Shown in pieces: positions 427 through 10,791 of a DNA stretch of 14,658 bases (position 1 is the first letter of the stretch; the number at the start of each line of letters is the position of its first letter). The notes under the pieces are model-generated. The model was not told where the DNA came from, ran no database searches, and saw only the letters and a program-made list of their open reading frames with translations. A program made the position numbers and the translations under genes. Origin of the DNA: Bacteroidales bacterium (GTDB lineage Bacteria > Bacteroidota > Bacteroidia > Bacteroidales > P3). Location: contig JAGCLI010000147.1 of NCBI GenBank assembly GCA_017647065.1, positions 1-14,658 of the forward strand, in the 5' to 3' direction.

Positions 427-2331
427 TTAATAAGCTCTTTTATTGTTTCCTTCGTAGTAGTTAATAAAGGCTTTATTTACTACTTTATTTCCGCCAGCGG
501 TTGGATAATCGCCTGTAAAGTACCAATCGCCTGTGTTATTTGGGCAAGCTTCGTGAAGCGATTCTATGGTATTGAAAATTATTTCTACTTCTGCATTTGC
601 ATCATCAGGAGTTAGCATTTGCGTAATCTTTGCTGTGATTTGGTCATCGGTAAATGGAGCGTAGATTTCTTTAACATAGTTTACGATTTCTTCTTTTGGA
701 AGATTTTCTTGTGCTTTACACTTGCGATAAACCTCTTCTATGATATGTGCTTGATTGGTTTCTTTCAACAACTCTATGGTTGCGTTGAAAGCAATAAACT
801 CATTTAGTCTTGACATATCGATTCCGTAGCAGTCAGGGTAACGAATTTGTGGTGCAGATGAAGCAACAACTATTTTCTTTGGTCCTAAACGGTCAAGGAT
901 TCTTAGAATTGATTGTTTAAGTGTTGTTCCCCTTACAATGCTATCGTCAATTACTACAAGATTATCTACATATTCTTTGACTTGTCCGTAAGTTACATCG
1001 TAAACATGTGCTACCATATCATCTCTTTCGCTATCGCGTGTGATGAATGTACGTAGTTTTACGTCTTTTACTGCTATGTATTCTCTTCTTGTCTTAGTTG
1101 AGAAGATTTCTTTTAACTTTTCTTCTGTTAAGTTTTCTTTATTTGCAAGTATTTCTTCTATTCGTAGTTTGTCGGCGTGCTCTGCAAAGGCTTCTGCCAT
1201 ACCTTGAAAGGCTACTGAGGCAGTATTTGGTATGTAAGAAATGACTGTATTCTTTATATCGTTGTTTATTGCTTTTAATACTTTTGGTAGGATTAGTCTT
1301 CCAAGCATTTTTCTTTCTTTATAGATGTCTGCATCGGTTCCTCGTGAGAAATAAATGCGTTCAAAAGAGCATTGTTTTGGTGCTTTTGTAGGTTCTTTGC
1401 AGCATTCTATGCTTATTTCGCCATTTCTTTTGATTATGATTGCGTGTCCTGCTGGTAATTCTTTTATTGCAGTGAGAGGTTTGTTGAAAGTCGTCATTAT
1501 CACAGGGCGTTCTGAGGCTACAACGGCTATTTCCTCATCTACGTAATAGAAACATGGTCTTATTCCGTTTTCATCTCTTAAAACAAAAGCGTCTCCGTGT
1601 CCTATCATTCCTGCCATTACGTATCCGCCGTCCCATCTCTTTGCAGAAGAGGTTAGAATTGTTTTTATATCCAATTCTTCTGCTATTTTCTCTGATATTT
1701 CTACGTTAGAAAGAACTCTTTCATCTTTGTATTTTCGGAATATTCTTTCGACTTCTCTGTCTAAAAACTTACCTATTTTCTCTAATACTATGGCTGTGTC
1801 AGCTACTTTTACGGGATGTTGTCCTAAACTTATGAGTTTGTCTAACATTTCATCAATATTAGTCAAATTAAAGTTGCCTGCAAGAACAAGATTACGTGTT
1901 TTCCAGTTGTTTTCTCTTAGAAAAGGGTGAAGATTGTCTATTTCGTCTTTTCCAAAGGTTCCATAGCGTAAATGTCCTAAGAAAAGTTCTCCTGTAAACC
2001 TTGCATTATTTTTTAACCAATTTATATCCTTTGCCTCTTCTGGGTGAGAAAGTTTAAGATTCTTCATATCCTTAAACGCTTCGGCAAATATATCTTGTAT
2101 AGGAGTAGAGGTATTGGATTTTGTTATGTTTATATATTGTTCTCCTGGCTTTGTGTCAAACTTAATGTTTGCAAGACCTGCTCCATCTTGTCCTCTATTG
2201 TGTTGTTTCTCCATAAGGAGATACATTCTGTTTAATGCCCAAGTGTTTCCGTACTTTTCTTGGTAATATTCCAATGGTTTTAGCAATCTTAACATTGCTA
2301 TTCCGCATTCGTGTTTGATTTGGTCGCTCAT
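427..2331 (-). CDS. purF: Amidophosphoribosyltransferase, long Bacteroidales form (PurF)
   Basis: PurF catalyses the first committed step of purine synthesis: PRPP plus glutamine gives 5-phosphoribosylamine. The N-terminal class II glutamine amidotransferase domain has Cys9 (HECGIAM) as likely nucleophile after removal of an 8-residue propeptide, RGQDGAG at 47-52 and GHLRYGT at 119-125. The C-terminal phosphoribosyltransferase domain has the PRPP-binding loop VVIDDSIVRGTT at 459-470, preceded by RTFI near 427-430. At 634 aa it is much longer than the usual PurF of about 470-500 aa, with an extended C-terminus and insertions. I recall this long form from Bacteroidales, where it can coexist with a standard PurF, so a paralogous role is possible. 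It starts 10 bases after nadE, so the two are probably co-transcribed, and it is the last gene before the terminator at 362-398. Confidence 0.9.
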   Translation of the reverse strand: MSDQIKHECGIAMLRLLKPLEYYQEKYGNTWALNRMYLLMEKQHNRGQDGAGLANIKFDTKPGEQYINITKSNTSTPIQDIFAEAFKDMKNLKLSHPEEAKDINWLKNNARFTGELFLGHLRYGTFGKDEIDNLHPFLRENNWKTRNLVLAGNFNLTNIDEMLDKLISLGQHPVKVADTAIVLEKIGKFLDREVERIFRKYKDERVLSNVEISEKIAEELDIKTILTSSAKRWDGGYVMAGMIGHGDAFVLRDENGIRPCFYYVDEEIAVVASERPVIMTTFNKPLTAIKELPAGHAIIIKRNGEISIECCKEPTKAPKQCSFERIYFSRGTDADIYKERKMLGRLILPKVLKAINNDIKNTVISYIPNTASVAFQGMAEAFAEHADKLRIEEILANKENLTEEKLKEIFSTKTRREYIAVKDVKLRTFITRDSERDDMVAHVYDVTYGQVKEYVDNLVVIDDSIVRGTTLKQSILRILDRLGPKKIVVASSAPQIRYPDCYGIDMSRLNEFIAFNATIELLKETNQAHIIEEVYRKCKAQENLPKEEIVNYVKEIYAPFTDDQITAKITQMLTPDDANAEVEIIFNTIESLHEACPNNTGDWYFTGDYPTAGGNKVVNKAFINYYEGNNKRAY

Positions 2332-4961: not shown

Positions 4962-5426
4962 TTATTTTAATAAATAACTACTTATGTAGTGTTCTATTTC
5001 GGTTTCCGACATAAATCCTTGCATAATAATAGGCGAAGAAGTAGAATCTGAAAAGAATATTAAAGTAGGAATTGCCGTAATACCCAATACATTTGCCAAA
5101 TCTGAGGATTTATCTACGTCTATTTTGTAAAAATAAACCTTATCTTCATATTTTTTTGACATTTTCTCCATTATGGGCGACAACTTCTTACAAGGACCAC
5201 ACCAAGAAGCATAAAAATCAACTATTGCAGGCTTATCGCCAATATAAGTTAAAGCATTGTTCTCTATTTTTGCAATTTTGTCAATAAAATACTTAGTATC
5301 GGCGTCTATTACCTTTGATTGATTTATTATTTTGTTTTCTTCTGTTTTTACAGTCTGCTTTTCGCCACAAGAAAACAAAAAGATGAACGAAAATATCAAT
5401 AGAAAATTAAAATATCTTACTTTCAT
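4962..5426 (-). CDS. Thioredoxin-fold lipoprotein
   Basis: This is a predicted lipoprotein thiol-disulfide oxidoreductase of 154 aa. The N-terminus (MKVRYFNFLL) leads into a hydrophobic stretch ending LFSC, giving a lipidated Cys20. A charged linker follows, then a thioredoxin domain from about 45 to 154 with the active site WCGPCKK (Cys76, Cys79) and the cis-proline segment AIPTL (Pro120). It should act in the periplasm, anchored to a membrane by its lipid, as a reductant or disulfide exchanger; its partner is unknown. I chose the ATG at 5426 because it gives a standard lipoprotein signal and sits one base after the upstream stop (TAATATG), suggesting translational coupling. A start six codons earlier (5444) would overlap the upstream gene by 17 bases. 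It is the last gene of the six-gene run that starts with rpiB. Confidence 0.88.
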   Translation of the reverse strand: MKVRYFNFLLIFSFIFLFSCGEKQTVKTEENKIINQSKVIDADTKYFIDKIAKIENNALTYIGDKPAIVDFYASWCGPCKKLSPIMEKMSKKYEDKVYFYKIDVDKSSDLANVLGITAIPTLIFFSDSTSSPIIMQGFMSETEIEHYISSYLLK

Positions 5427-5427
5427 A

Positions 5428-7548
5428 TTACAACCATTTTTCATTTTTATACCATTTTATTGTTTCTTCTACTCCTCTTTTTAAATCATATTGAGGGATG
5501 TAATTCAAATCTTTTTTTAAATCTTCTATATCACAATCCCAATTACGAGCAGAAAGAATAGAATACTTATCTTTATTAAGCGTAAACTGCTTCCCAATCA
5601 TATTGCCAAAAGAATTTAAAAACGAAGAAATGAATTTAACGATACAAAGCGGGAATGTTATTTTTATTGTCCACTTTTTCAAAACTTCTTTTGAGATTTG
5701 AGAATATTCACTATCCAAATACATATTTCCATCGCTAACAAAATATGTTCTTGCTGAAACATCGCTTTCAAAAGCTTTAATGCACAAATCCACAAGGTCC
5801 TTTGAATAAACAAAAGTCAAGTGTTGTGGAACAAATCCTAAGTATGGTTCCAAATGAATATCAATAGTTTGGAAGAAAACAAAGTAAACTGTTACACGTG
5901 GACCATAAACACCAGTTGGTCTCAAAATAACGTATTTTCCTTTAAAGTTTGAGTTAATATATTCTTCGGCTTTAAGTTTTGAAACCCCGTATGCAGTATT
6001 CGGATTATTAATATCACTAACCTTAGCCTTTGCAAAAGTTTTTTCATCTCCTGGTCCGTGAGCTGCAAACGAAGACAAGAAAATCAATTTTGTTACATTT
6101 ACATCAATAGCATCAACCAAATTTTTTGTAAAACTATAATTAACCCTATCAAAATCTTCATTTCTCTTCGCCTTTGTAAGACCTGCTAAATGAAATACAC
6201 ATTTAAAATTAAATTCTTGTAATTGTTTTTTTAATTTTTCAGAATCAGAAAATGCCAAATCAATGAAATTTATTCTTGTATCTTGCAAATATTTTTTACT
6301 TGATGTACTTCTAATCCCTGCATACACATTATATTTTCCATCTTCAAGCAATTTATCAATTAAAGTACTGCCTATAAATCCACTTGCACCAGTTACCAAA
6401 ACTTTTTCACGATTATCCTCAGGTATTTCTTTAATATATGCCCTTCTTCTCATAACAATATTGGAATCCTCATATTTTTCCCAAATGCGAGCTGCAAGAT
6501 TAGTTTCTAATTGAGGGCTTGCAAGTGCTGTTTGAGAGCCTAAGGAAATATATTGCTTATTCATTTCGGCATAATATATGGAATGAATCCCTTTATTCTG
6601 CCATTTAGGGTGTACACCATTGAAATAAAGATCTATTTTCTCAAAATTGCGTATCGCTTTTAAGAAATGATACCAACCAAATGGGAATAATTTTCCTTTA
6701 CTCTTACGAAGTGCTTCGGTAAGCGACGGCATAGAAACTCCAAAGGCTGCAATATCATCATTTTCATCAACAATCAAACACAAAAGCTTTTTATTCAAAA
6801 AAGGAAAGTACATATCAATATAGAATTGCATTTGTTTTTCGTTCAAAGGTACATATCCAAAAAGATGAGAGAAGGCTTCGTTTAGCGTTTCAAATAATTT
6901 ATGACCATATCTCTTTGCAATTTGTTGTGCCGATAGTCCTTCTACAATTCTAAGATTATACTTTTCCTTAATTAGATTATTGATTCGTAAAATCTTTTCA
7001 GGAATTTCTTGATTTGCTTTTATTCTATATTGAATCCAATCTACTTCTTTCTTATAGGAAAGCCTATCCATTATTTCTGGATAATAGGAAGGATTATAGT
7101 AAGTAGGCATTGAACAATCATCTTCAAAGCCTTCTACAAGCATTCCTTCTTTATCCATATCGGTAAAGCCCATTGGCCCTACGATTTGAGTCATTCCCTG
7201 GCTCCTACCCCAATTTTCAACTGCTTCTAAAAGCTTTTGACAAACTATATCTTCATTTATAAAATCTAACCAACCAAATCTAATTCTTTTTTCTTTCCAA
7301 ATTTCGTTTGATTTATGGTTTATCATTCCCACAACCCTACCTACCACTTCTGTGCCTTTATATGCCAAAAAGATTTTAAAATCACAAAACTCCAAAGCAG
7401 GGTTTTTCCTCTTGTCAAAAGTGGTTTTTTCATCCATTATTAAAGAAGGAACCCACTTCTTATCGTTTTTGTAAAGTTTATAAGGAAAATTTAAAAATTC
7501 TTTAAAGCCTTTTTTGTCTATAACGGTCTTTACAGTGATAGTATTCAT
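5428..7548 (-). CDS. Fused GNAT acyltransferase / extended SDR reductase, likely bacterial ceramide synthase-3-ketosphinganine reductase
   Basis: This is a 706-aa two-domain protein. Residues 1 to about 375 resemble a GNAT-superfamily N-acyltransferase: EVVGRVVGMINH near 67-78, GPMGFTDMDKEG at 124-135, and a second half with GVHPKWQNKGI at 311-321 resembling an acyl-CoA-binding turn. Residues about 380-706 are an extended SDR/NAD-epimerase domain with VTGASGFIG at 385-393 (GxxGxxG), LSSFAAHGPG at 491-500, catalytic YGVSK at 520-524 and RPTGVYGP at 543-550. It is 7 bases downstream of serine palmitoyltransferase. Known bacterial ceramide synthesis (Caulobacter spt, bCerS, cerR) uses a GNAT-type acyltransferase and an epimerase-like SDR as separate proteins. 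By inference this gene supplies both: N-acylation of the long-chain base and reduction of the 3-keto group. The SDR alone could instead act on another substrate. The domain assignment is firm; the substrate is inferred from the neighbour. Confidence 0.8.
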   Translation of the reverse strand: MNTITVKTVIDKKGFKEFLNFPYKLYKNDKKWVPSLIMDEKTTFDKRKNPALEFCDFKIFLAYKGTEVVGRVVGMINHKSNEIWKEKRIRFGWLDFINEDIVCQKLLEAVENWGRSQGMTQIVGPMGFTDMDKEGMLVEGFEDDCSMPTYYNPSYYPEIMDRLSYKKEVDWIQYRIKANQEIPEKILRINNLIKEKYNLRIVEGLSAQQIAKRYGHKLFETLNEAFSHLFGYVPLNEKQMQFYIDMYFPFLNKKLLCLIVDENDDIAAFGVSMPSLTEALRKSKGKLFPFGWYHFLKAIRNFEKIDLYFNGVHPKWQNKGIHSIYYAEMNKQYISLGSQTALASPQLETNLAARIWEKYEDSNIVMRRRAYIKEIPEDNREKVLVTGASGFIGSTLIDKLLEDGKYNVYAGIRSTSSKKYLQDTRINFIDLAFSDSEKLKKQLQEFNFKCVFHLAGLTKAKRNEDFDRVNYSFTKNLVDAIDVNVTKLIFLSSFAAHGPGDEKTFAKAKVSDINNPNTAYGVSKLKAEEYINSNFKGKYVILRPTGVYGPRVTVYFVFFQTIDIHLEPYLGFVPQHLTFVYSKDLVDLCIKAFESDVSARTYFVSDGNMYLDSEYSQISKEVLKKWTIKITFPLCIVKFISSFLNSFGNMIGKQFTLNKDKYSILSARNWDCDIEDLKKDLNYIPQYDLKRGVEETIKWYKNEKWL

Positions 7549-7555
7549 AATATTC

Positions 7556-8743
7556 TTATTTTATTATTTCGTATTTGCGGAATGTTTTATGTAATTTGTC
7601 TATTGCTTCTTCTACTTGCTCTTTTGTATGCGTAGCCATAAGAGAAAATCTTATTAAAGTATCTTCCGGAGAACAAGCAGGAGGAATCACAGGGTTAATA
7701 AATATTCCATTATCATAAAGTTCTCGTGTAATAAGGAAGGTTTTATCCATATCTCTTACATAGAGAGGTATTATCGGAGTAGAGGTATTTCCAATTTCAA
7801 AACCTAATTCTCTAAATGTTTTTAAGGCATAATCCGTTATTTTCCATAAATTCTCTATTCTTTCAGGCTCTTGTTTTATTATATCTATCGCTGCAATTAC
7901 GCTTGCAGTAGCTGCAGGAGATATTGAAGCAGAAAAAATGTATGGACGTGAGTGATGTTTCAAGAAATTGATAGTTTCGGCATCGGTTGCTATAAATCCC
8001 CCTATTGTTGCCAAGGATTTAGAAAATGTTCCCATAATTAAATCAACTTTATCTGTCAATCCATATTCCGAACATAACCCCCTACCCTCTTTTCCAAAAA
8101 TTCCTAATGAGTGTGCTTCATCTACATAAACAGAAGCATTATATTCTTCTGCCAAAGCAGTAATTTTATGTAAATCGGCTACGTCTCCTTCCATTGAAAA
8201 CACACTATCGGTTACTATTAACTTAATACTATCGTATGGAATCTTTTTTAACACATCTTCTAACGAAGACATATCATTGTGTTTATAACGATGAGACGAT
8301 GCAAAAGAAAGTCTACGTCCTTCAACTATTGAAGCGTGATTCAATTCATCACAAATAATATGATCATTTCTTCCCATAATTGTAGGAATCACTCCAATAT
8401 TTGAATGAAATCCTGTAGAATAAACTATAGCCTTTTCTTTACCAACATAATCTGCAAGTTTTTCTTCTAATTCTATATGAATATCCAAAGTACCATTTAA
8501 AAACGGAGAACCAGCACAACCTGTACCATATTTTTTTATTGCTTCAATACTTGCTTCTTTAATTTTAGGGTGATTAGTTAATCCTAAATAACTATTTGAA
8601 CCAAACATCAATACTTTTTCTCCTCGCATTATAACTTCTGTATCTTGCTCGCTTGAAATAGGTCTAAAATATGGATAAATACCTAATTCCTTTACTCTTT
8701 GCGGTTCGTTGTATAACGATAATTTTTTACGTAATTGCTTCAT
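7556..8743 (-). CDS. spt: Serine palmitoyltransferase (alpha-oxoamine synthase family)
   Basis: This PLP-dependent enzyme condenses L-serine with a fatty acyl thioester to 3-ketosphinganine, the entry step of sphingolipid synthesis. The 395-aa length and fold type I motifs fit: GSNSYLGLTNHP at 48-59, KYGTGCAGSPFLNGTLDIH at 71-89, His136 (NHAS) stacking on PLP, DEAH at 208-211 and the Schiff-base lysine K242 in GTFSKSLATIGGF. The family also contains Kbl (glycine C-acetyltransferase) and BioF, which are similar throughout. I prefer SPT because of the GTGCAGSxFLNGTLD segment, as I recall it from Bacteroidales SPT, and because the next gene pairs an acyltransferase with an SDR. It is cytoplasmic, possibly associated with the inner membrane. 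It lies 3 bases after deoC and 7 before the fusion gene, so it is co-transcribed with both. Confidence 0.85.
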   Translation of the reverse strand: MKQLRKKLSLYNEPQRVKELGIYPYFRPISSEQDTEVIMRGEKVLMFGSNSYLGLTNHPKIKEASIEAIKKYGTGCAGSPFLNGTLDIHIELEEKLADYVGKEKAIVYSTGFHSNIGVIPTIMGRNDHIICDELNHASIVEGRRLSFASSHRYKHNDMSSLEDVLKKIPYDSIKLIVTDSVFSMEGDVADLHKITALAEEYNASVYVDEAHSLGIFGKEGRGLCSEYGLTDKVDLIMGTFSKSLATIGGFIATDAETINFLKHHSRPYIFSASISPAATASVIAAIDIIKQEPERIENLWKITDYALKTFRELGFEIGNTSTPIIPLYVRDMDKTFLITRELYDNGIFINPVIPPACSPEDTLIRFSLMATHTKEQVEEAIDKLHKTFRKYEIIK

Positions 8744-8746
8744 ATA

Positions 8747-9634
8747 TTATTTATCTCTCGTTAATTTTTCTTTAATTTTATCAAATAATTGACTACAACC
8801 TATTCTAAAATAGTTGTTATCAAAATCTGAAGTAATGAATTTTTTATATAAATTAGTATATAAAATAGCTTCTTCTATCATTCTGATTCCTCCTGCTACT
8901 TTTACAGATTTCAAAACATTGGTTTTAAGATAATACTGCCTAAGAGCAAGCATCATTACTGAAAAAGAATAAATATCTGCTCCTTTTTCTATTTTTCCTG
9001 TTGAGGTTTTGATAAAATCTGCACCATTTTCTAAACATAAAATAGAAGCTTGCATAATATTTTGAAAGCAAGATAACTCCCCTACTTCTAAAATAACTTT
9101 TAAAACAATGTTTTTATCTGCCAAATTAAGCAAATCTTTTATCTCCCTTATCTCTTGAGCTGCTTTCTCTTTATTCTCATCAAAAAATAAACCTCTATTT
9201 AAACATATATCTATCTCATCTACATTGTTTTCTATTGCATATTTTATTTCTTCTTTTTTTACACTCAATGGAACTTGAGAATGAGGAAATCCTGCTGCAA
9301 CAACTACTGATTTTATCTTTTTTGATGGTTTACAATCATTTATTTGCGATAAGAATGGAGAATAACAACAAATCCCTCCTACATAATAATTATTTGATTT
9401 ACAAGTTAAAACACTATTTTTTACAAATTCTGTAATCGTTTTATTATTATCTGTTGATTTTAAAGAAGTTAAATCTAAATATTGTATTAAGTTAAATAAA
9501 TCCTCTTCGGAATAATTTGATAATTTATTAGATATAATTATCTCATCTATAGATTTTTTAAATTCATCTACCTTATTATTATAAATAAACTCTAATAATT
9601 TATCTTCATTTTCGATTTGATTTATACTTTTCAT
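8747..9634 (-). CDS. deoC: Deoxyribose-phosphate aldolase
   Basis: DeoC splits 2-deoxy-D-ribose 5-phosphate into glyceraldehyde 3-phosphate and acetaldehyde, in deoxynucleoside salvage. The TIM-barrel motifs are all present: VDEIDICLN with the catalytic Asp (142 in this numbering), DFIKTSTGK with the Schiff-base lysine K209, and VKVAGGIR with the activating lysine K245. I chose the ATG at 9634 (295 aa), preceded by GAGAG. A TTG three codons earlier at 9643 overlaps the upstream stop and is less likely. An N-terminal extension of roughly 40-50 residues, rich in Asn, Lys and Glu, precedes the barrel compared with short DeoC proteins. The gene is more AT-rich than purF or recA. It sits between the LUD-type protein and spt in the tight minus-strand run; no phosphopentomutase or nucleoside phosphorylase is nearby. 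Confidence 0.93.
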   Translation of the reverse strand: MKSINQIENEDKLLEFIYNNKVDEFKKSIDEIIISNKLSNYSEEDLFNLIQYLDLTSLKSTDNNKTITEFVKNSVLTCKSNNYYVGGICCYSPFLSQINDCKPSKKIKSVVVAAGFPHSQVPLSVKKEEIKYAIENNVDEIDICLNRGLFFDENKEKAAQEIREIKDLLNLADKNIVLKVILEVGELSCFQNIMQASILCLENGADFIKTSTGKIEKGADIYSFSVMMLALRQYYLKTNVLKSVKVAGGIRMIEEAILYTNLYKKFITSDFDNNYFRIGCSQLFDKIKEKLTRDK

Positions 9635-9639
9635 TACTC

Positions 9640-10791
9640 TCAAATTTTATCTTGTTGTATTTGGTTAAATGTCCTTTTTGAAAAAGTAGGAATATACACC
9701 AATTTTCTTGTAGTTTTTGGTATTATTCTTCTCAATAAATATCTTTTATACCATGATTTTGAATTCATTTTCTTCCGCTTTAAAAAGAACTTTTTAAGGC
9801 TAATTATCAATAAGTTATCCTCAAAATCTAATATTTTATTTTCAAAGAAAAATTTCCTGTTTTCAAGAATTAAATCTGGTATTGAAAGATTAACAGGACA
9901 AACACTTGAACAATTTCCACAAAGTAAGCAATTGTAACTTAAATGTTTATAATTTTCATAATTTTCTAAGTAAGGTAACATAACGTTTGCAACAGGTCCG
10001 GTTATTGTATTAGAATAAGGTTCATCTTTTATAGACTGATAAACCGGACAAACCTTCTTACAAGCTCCGCAATCTATGCAAGATAAAATTCTTCTTTGTT
10101 CTTTGAAAGCCAATAGATTACTTCGTGAATTATCTACTATGAAAACGTATGTTTCTTTATTAGTATCAAATGCTGAAGGAGTAAAAATATTTGATAATAT
10201 CGGAAAAGAAGTATTTTTTTTATAAATTGAAAATATATGTGTAAATATATCAATATCAGATATATTACAAATAAATTTGTTAATTGGCAGTATACATATT
10301 TTAATTTTAGAGTCTAAAAATAATTCCATTTCAAAAACAGAATCAAATACCGAAAACATACTTGCAGTATCAACAACTGCCAAATCAGGAGAAAGAATAG
10401 AACATTTGTTTTCATTTGAAAATGAAGATATTCCTTCATTTTTTAATGTTTCTTTTAATCCTAATTCTTCTGTAAAATTAGAAAAAAAAGCATTGACGGA
10501 CTTTATTTTTTTATTACTTAAAAGATCAAGTAATTGTTCCGTAAAGTCCTCATAAGATAAACACCAATTAATTTTTCCTTTATTTGAAAGAAGATTTTTT
10601 TCAAATAGAAGAAGATTATCAACTATATTGTTAATGAATTTTTGTCTAACTCTATAAGCTTGATTTTTAAGTTTATCTATATCATTAAATGTTGAGTGAA
10701 TCGTACTTTTAGGATTAAATACCTCAAAATCAGAGTTATTTAAATTTCTATTACAAATATGTAAAAAACTTTTGTATTCACTCGTATTCAT
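9640..10791 (-). CDS. Shortened LutB-like iron-sulfur protein with divergent LUD region
   Basis: The protein resembles the lactate-utilisation iron-sulfur protein LutB/YkgF. Two ferredoxin-type cluster motifs are complete: CIDCGACKKVCPVY with Cys238, 241, 244 and 248, and CLLCGNCSSVCPV with Cys288, 291, 294 and 298. They are linked by the family segment TITGPVANVMLP (262-273). They follow FIVDNSRSNLLAFK (217-230), which matches the end of the LUD domain in LutB. Residues 1 to about 215 are a divergent LUD-like region. At 383 aa it is about 80-100 residues shorter than usual LutB (about 460-480), and its C-terminus is a strongly basic tail (KRKK, RYLLRR). LutA and LutC partners are absent here. 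It likely shuttles electrons in a membrane-associated oxidoreductase, but the substrate is unknown. It lies 10 bases after rpiB, with deoC starting 5 bases downstream. Confidence 0.75.
   Translation of the reverse strand: MNTSEYKSFLHICNRNLNNSDFEVFNPKSTIHSTFNDIDKLKNQAYRVRQKFINNIVDNLLLFEKNLLSNKGKINWCLSYEDFTEQLLDLLSNKKIKSVNAFFSNFTEELGLKETLKNEGISSFSNENKCSILSPDLAVVDTASMFSVFDSVFEMELFLDSKIKICILPINKFICNISDIDIFTHIFSIYKKNTSFPILSNIFTPSAFDTNKETYVFIVDNSRSNLLAFKEQRRILSCIDCGACKKVCPVYQSIKDEPYSNTITGPVANVMLPYLENYENYKHLSYNCLLCGNCSSVCPVNLSIPDLILENRKFFFENKILDFEDNLLIISLKKFFLKRKKMNSKSWYKRYLLRRIIPKTTRKLVYIPTFSKRTFNQIQQDKI

Follow-up and report, generated by a model that had tools for sequence, protein, structure and literature searches.

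Can the bacterial route from serine to dihydroceramide be carried by two genes, and where and in what order would its ketone then be reduced? The question is raised by a 14,658-nucleotide contig of a Bacteroidales bacterium (JAGCLI010000147.1 of assembly GCA_017647065.1; the whole stretch analyzed here, hereafter the window), in which one open reading frame (ORF) appears to join a GNAT-type N-acyltransferase of the bCerS kind to an extended short-chain dehydrogenase/reductase (SDR) of the CerR kind, 7 nt past an ORF for serine palmitoyltransferase (SPT) on the same minus strand. A sequence-only reading of this DNA had noticed the single frame and its SPT-like neighbor, assigned the two halves to those enzyme families, and taken the order of the domains as a sign that acylation precedes reduction. 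The ORF coordinates confirm the observation and the family assignments are upheld, while the argument from domain order does not survive.

Identity of the fused gene and its partner

The fusion ORF (5428-7548, minus strand) has an ATG start and encodes 706 residues. Its N-terminal half (residues 1-375; 6424..7548, minus) is assigned to the tandem-GNAT N-acyltransferases of the bCerS/YghO family, its C-terminal half (residues 382-706 and the stop; 5428..6405, minus) to the extended SDRs of CerR type, and the six residues between them, PEDNRE (residues 376-381; 6406..6423, minus), form a linker in which the stop and start codons of split relatives are gone. The gene is real: a second genome, with a fusion ORF 86.7% identical in DNA, also has an open junction, so the fusion is not a sequencing slip. 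The SPT gene beside it (7556-8743, minus, 395 aa) scores 665.9 bits against the NCBIfam model NF047600 (CFB type; cut-off 640), which bears out the earlier identification; its best PDB match is the serine palmitoyltransferase 8guh, and it scores 503 bits against SPT structures.

For the N-terminal half, a search with residues 1-373 alone at thresholds up to E 10 gave no match in either Pfam or NCBIfam. The label 'GNAT-like' is instead drawn from members of its family, 15 of the 21 in the family alignment matching PF00583 at E up to 1 (the window's own half not among them), from weak matches of the family profile to GNAT acetyltransferases in the PDB (best E 0.0004), and from a predicted structure modeled as a tandem GNAT fold (the model of the whole fusion protein has a predicted TM-score, pTM, of 0.67). 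The window half finds Escherichia coli YghO at E 8e-32 and about 28% identity, and YghO as query returns one match at E up to 1 per genome in 4/4 genomes of the genus, always the GNAT half or its split counterpart. A printed gene list names YghO alongside the Caulobacter ceramide acyltransferase (PMC9386255). Because YghO finds only this half or its counterpart, and on the strength of that list, the N-terminal half is classed as bCerS-type, with an acylating activity predicted; the assignment passes through the reciprocal match with YghO, the Caulobacter protein itself lying outside the comparison. A grouping with an unrelated acetyltransferase family, the outcome that the sequence-only reading had named as speaking against its proposal, did not occur.

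The C-terminal half carries a Pfam Epimerase match (fusion residues 383-599) and the GxxGxxG and YxxxK patterns of extended SDRs. Both motifs pointed out earlier, GASGFIG and YGVSK (Y520-x-x-x-K524), are intact, and all aligned rows (15/15 and 14/14) agree at their G, Y and K positions. The E. coli ceramide dehydrogenase (ECD_02852) has this half or its counterpart as best match in 4/4 genomes of the genus, at about 26% identity; genome G003 holds 14 PF01370 stretches, yet the dehydrogenase picks the counterpart of the SDR half first. A tree of 22 SDRs separates 15 rows (the window, its relatives, and SDRs lying near SPT or GNAT genes or found via the SDR half, including that of E. coli) from seven other SDRs of G003 with support of 89/92, a split that 88% of bootstrap trees share; an outgroup row (L114, 646 aa) was omitted. 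Since the E. coli enzyme matches it best, and with moderate support from the tree, the half is placed in the CerR type and a reducing activity is predicted for it. Arg413 is invariant in 14/14 aligned rows, at a site that is often basic in NADP(H)-preferring SDRs. The family profile also matches chains of NDUFA9, described as a relative of CerR (PMC11087976). No match to the KdsR model (NF049977) was obtained for the SDR half at E up to 1e-50 in G000-G005, and of the 67 NCBIfam families retrieved with this half, the 25 top-ranking ones do not include that model. The earlier naming of the reductase held in part: the CerR type agrees with the sequence, while the title 'ketosphinganine reductase' and the CerR of its text denote enzymes acting on two different substrates.

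Distribution and origin of the fusion

The survey of split and fused versions that had been proposed on the basis of the sequence gave 46 paired loci with both halves, 31 of them distinct, and two of the 31 are fused: the window and a locus in a Bacteroidales genome from water-buffalo caecum (L021, containing the DNA of G003's L002). Both belong to one genus, where the fusion occurs in two related gut species and 2/6 genomes. The other 29 distinct loci hold split neighbors with stops between the genes, the reductase alignment starting 8-94 nt past the first base of the acyltransferase stop. The matches listed for the order (393 genomes) and for the class (395 genomes) include no further unbroken match over both halves, in a scan that scored two candidates per genome and read part of the junctions, long frames in G771 and G239 being left unread. 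Apparent long open frames in G142 and G159 contained several stop codons on reading and are split, and no fused frame was found in the suspected fusions of G242, G123, G310 and G038. Two alignments (A1 and A4) were set aside, as reductases seemed to sit on acyltransferase columns (13-32% identity against the 60-76% expected).

A hand count on the DNA against the split genus-mate G004, in which the reductase begins MEFKKEVSLDNRPKVLV, gives a net loss of 44 nt at the fused junction, including the stop and the reductase start, leaving EI-PEDNRE-KVLV. Between the two fused species, the GNAT half has 264 identical, 74 synonymous and 37 non-synonymous codons, the linker three, two and one, and the SDR half 202, 80 and 43. 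The corresponding ratios of non-synonymous to synonymous substitution rates (dN/dS, NG86 method) are 0.084 for the GNAT half and 0.122 for the SDR half, and thus both halves are maintained under purifying selection. The fusion is thus of recent origin and, within the genomes searched, of narrow distribution, having arisen in one genus out of an operon of SPT, bCerS and CerR genes. A literature search over titles and abstract openings, with preprints outside its scope, found no report of a fused bCerS-CerR, which leaves the absence of such reports unproven.

Two reductase types among relatives

Several genera without an adjacent CerR-type SDR have a classical SDR of about 266 aa adjoining bCerS and SPT, recognized by position and sequence match in L016, L017, L018, L053 (6259-7056), L058 and L059, and at 41% identity in L096. 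Two of these classical SDRs score 394.3 and 381.5 against NF049977 (3-ketodihydrosphingosine reductase), just below its cut-off of 400. The two reductases were compared across 61 genomes, with thresholds chosen after viewing the gaps in the scores: the threshold for a CerR-type SDR was 225 bits, reached in 22/61 genomes (next lower value 83), and that for KdsR was 323 bits, reached in 13/61 (next lower 224), only two of these exceeding the curated cut-off. At these cut-offs no genome of the 61 has both. SPT is present in 34, of which 20 have CerR only, 13 have KdsR only, and one (G006) has neither, with a KdsR-like fragment at a contig end. Counted by genus, 17 have SPT, ten with CerR, seven with KdsR and none with both (hypergeometric P 5e-5, genera being non-independent samples). 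The two types therefore look interchangeable, which suggests that the SDR half serves as the ketone reductase in an SPT pathway.

A tree of SPT (41 rows, E. coli root, 37 rows labeled by the adjacent reductase) requires two label changes, with CerR basal; one of them hangs on L096 alone, and a single change suffices in 6% of bootstrap trees. The distant rows L086-L088 (L086 being a glycine C-acetyltransferase) and a late-starting SPT row (L083) were omitted. Counter to the alternation, G142, which lies outside the 61 genomes, combines a CerR-type SDR next to SPT with a KdsR-like gene (46%) at another site, and both reductase types are reported or implied in Bacteroides (PMC10191378, PMC10865984), so the rule is regional and not universal.

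Proposed pathway and its alternatives

What we infer beyond the single frame, the families of its three parts, their conserved linkage, the purifying selection and the hydropathy concerns the reactions, the cofactor, the site and the order. The fusion would be a bifunctional cytoplasmic enzyme, bCerS and CerR in one chain, that together with SPT would convert serine and two fatty-acyl thioesters to dihydroceramide: SPT would produce 3-ketosphinganine, the GNAT half would acylate its amine, and the SDR half, probably using NADPH, would reduce the C3 ketone. The bifunctional assignment itself, in either order of steps, is judged likely, while acylation before reduction is held at slightly better than an even chance. 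The fusion protein has no hydrophobic or signal-like N-terminus and no membrane-like linker, its 19-residue hydropathy maximum being 1.44 at residue 626. The requirement for acyl thioesters would place the acyltransferase in the cytoplasm, and a reductase six residues away would then be cytoplasmic too, which suggests that acylation and ketone reduction occur together in that compartment. It should be noted that the E. coli ceramide dehydrogenase also has no evident signal peptide, so that sequence predicts no location within the CerR family.

Several observations weigh against this reading. The identities to the E. coli references are low (28% for GNAT, 26% for SDR), and the SDR grouping combines moderate support with long branches. 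The window protein departs from its relatives at 10 positions conserved in at least 12/13 aligned relatives, compared with six for the other fused species, and V552 and V554, just past RPTGVYGP, occur only in the window, where relatives have E (12/13) and D (13/13). In Caulobacter, bCerS was found to be cytoplasmic and CerR periplasmic (PMC11087976), and a periplasmic reductase is a poor fit with fusion to a cytoplasmic acyltransferase. Finally, G004 keeps bCerS and CerR although no SPT was found in it, and thus the pair may have an SPT-free use.

The order of the steps could be the reverse. The same two enzymes, with the bifunctional assignment shared, would then act as in eukaryotes, a KdsR-like SDR half reducing 3-ketosphinganine to sphinganine before the GNAT half acylates it. 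The alternation of the SDR half with KdsR across the 34 SPT-positive genomes favors this order, as does BT_0972, which reduces 3-ketosphinganine with NADPH (PMC9278070), and a GNAT of the bCerS family is present at 194 bits or more in 13/13 KdsR genomes, so that the family should accept the product of KdsR. Nonetheless, the sequence of the SDR half is not that of a KdsR, and deletion of its nearest studied relative, the CerR of Caulobacter, leaves oxidized ceramide (PMC11087976); reduction first is considered possible, if doubtful. The arrangement of the domains cannot serve as evidence for either order, because it copies the gene order of the split pairs (29/31 distinct loci) and because E. 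coli and Aureispira orient or order these genes differently.

Other explanations bear on the protein itself or on its substrate. The reductase might also, or mainly, be made as a separate polypeptide from the fused DNA, through an internal start at Met366 or cleavage of the linker. Both fused species have an in-frame ATG at codon 366 (window 6451-6453), near the end of the GNAT half, where split G004 has ATA and none of the remaining rows of the 21-row alignment has Met, and the reductase's own start codon has been lost; no well-placed ribosome-binding site was seen by eye before codon 366. Bacteroidota rely little on such sites, which weakens the objection, although a start at Met366 would, in the predicted fold, duplicate the last strand of the GNAT domain, and a separate reductase is judged unlikely. 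The pair might instead have a different amino-lipid as its substrate, such as the base of a sulfonolipid or a sphingoid base obtained by salvage, its linkage to SPT being only partly functional. This would accord with the presence of both genes without SPT in G004 and with the 9/44 bCerS-family loci in which the 2.2 kb upstream contain no SPT, some of these loci lying at contig ends. Against this, SPT is present in 20/22 CerR-type genomes, the exceptions being G004 and the 61%-complete G047, and the window SPT passes its curated score and is far nearer to SPT structures (503 bits) than to a cysteate acyltransferase (206 bits); the terms GNAT, N-acyl and CerR are absent from the main text of a paper on sulfonolipids (PMC11211663). 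Another substrate is judged improbable. An artefact of sequencing or assembly, to which the fragmented source assembly (332 contigs, 72% complete) and the splitting of 29/31 distinct loci might point, is ruled out, barring one systematic error common to both assemblies, by the second genome, whose open junction comes with synonymous and non-synonymous changes of its own, and we regard it as extremely improbable.

Related systems and neighboring genes

The closest counterparts of the GNAT half, Caulobacter crescentus bCerS (CC_1154/CCNA_01212) and E. coli YghO, belong to the same GNAT-type N-acyltransferase family, are of similar length and are found with SPT and CerR, but are stand-alone proteins. 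In Proteobacteria, bCerS is accompanied by a special acyl carrier protein and an acyl-ACP synthetase (PMC9386255), neither of which was found in the window, to which the search was limited. Ceramide genes are also present in E. coli BL21 (PMC9386255). Caulobacter CerR (CC_1164/CCNA_01222) and its E. coli B counterpart ECD_02852 are, like the SDR half, extended SDRs near SPT and the acyltransferase; Caulobacter CerR stands alone and has been placed in the periplasm, whereas the SDR half is joined to the acyltransferase and has no signal-like N-terminus. KdsR, of which BT_0972 is the enzyme studied for the activity, likewise neighbors SPT and bCerS in further genera of this family, but is a classical short SDR with a gene of its own, which in most of the loci read runs on the opposite strand. 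Operons of SPT, bCerS and CerR in other Bacteroidales, Streptomyces sp. NBC_01001 and Rubrobacter radiotolerans agree with the window in gene content and gene order but encode three separate proteins. The operons of this kind in Streptomyces (L068:4766-9292), where a condensation-domain gene comes next, and Rubrobacter (L090:3581-6948) are on plasmids and suggest sphingolipid synthesis in Actinomycetota; their SPT-like genes score below the cut-offs of the SPT models.

Around the SPT and fusion genes, the same strand encodes RpiB, LutB-like, DeoC-like, thioredoxin-like, NAD-synthase-like and PurF-like proteins and, judged from its sequence, RecA, in an order repeated in close relatives except for SPT in G004. 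The gene for the thioredoxin-like protein (4962..5444, minus) shares 17 nt with the end of the fusion gene; the protein has an N-terminus that by eye resembles a lipoprotein signal, and is probably outside the sphingolipid pathway. The gene for a DeoC-like aldolase (8747..9643, minus) is immediately upstream of SPT and is present in many relatives, with no known role in the pathway. In G004 (L102:4845-5990), whose genome is rated 100% complete, only 17 nt separate the end of deoC from the start of the acyltransferase gene, and the SPT gene between them is missing. No SPT match at E up to 1e-120 was found elsewhere in that genome, whose best match to SPT is a glycine C-acetyltransferase (672.7 against a cut-off of 493), and the use of imported sphingoid bases by G004 is possible.

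The LutB-like iron-sulfur protein (window 9640-10791, 383 aa), encoded between rpiB and deoC, scores 144 against a LutB/LldF cut-off of 445 and is conserved less than most neighbors. The PurF-like protein (window 427-2331, 634 aa) is 81-96% identical across the loci of the genus compared, scores 121 against a purF cut-off of 350, and is possibly a divergent paralogue. A second recurring neighborhood, with a bCerS-family gene directly before the genes for topoisomerase IV subunit B and coaD, is annotated in L069 and was recognized by eye in L054, L057, L097 and L098.

Implications for sphingolipid synthesis in Bacteroidales

The fusion is a new arrangement of known enzymes, chiefly valuable because the site and the order of the reduction become testable with it. 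Published descriptions put cerS in every case outside the operon of the de novo synthesis genes (PMC11324152) and, citing earlier work, have the three genes lying apart from one another in Bacteroidota that produce sphingolipids (PMC11334938); the fusion locus is an exception to both statements. How an NADH-dependent CerR works in a periplasm free of NADH has been called unclear (PMC11324152), and a natural fusion of CerR to the acyltransferase argues for a cytoplasmic reductase, at least in this lineage. As a single construct, the fusion brings the site of reduction, the order of the steps, the cofactor and channeling within reach of an assay, and the alternation of CerR and KdsR offers a basis for predicting the reductase used by a given species of Bacteroidales. 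In its broadest form, held tentatively and at somewhat less than even confidence, the proposal is that a cytoplasmic, NADPH-using fusion would hand keto-dihydroceramide from one active site to the other, that the periplasmic reduction inferred for Caulobacter would not be the general bacterial case, and that CerR and KdsR would be interchangeable cytoplasmic solutions in Bacteroidales.

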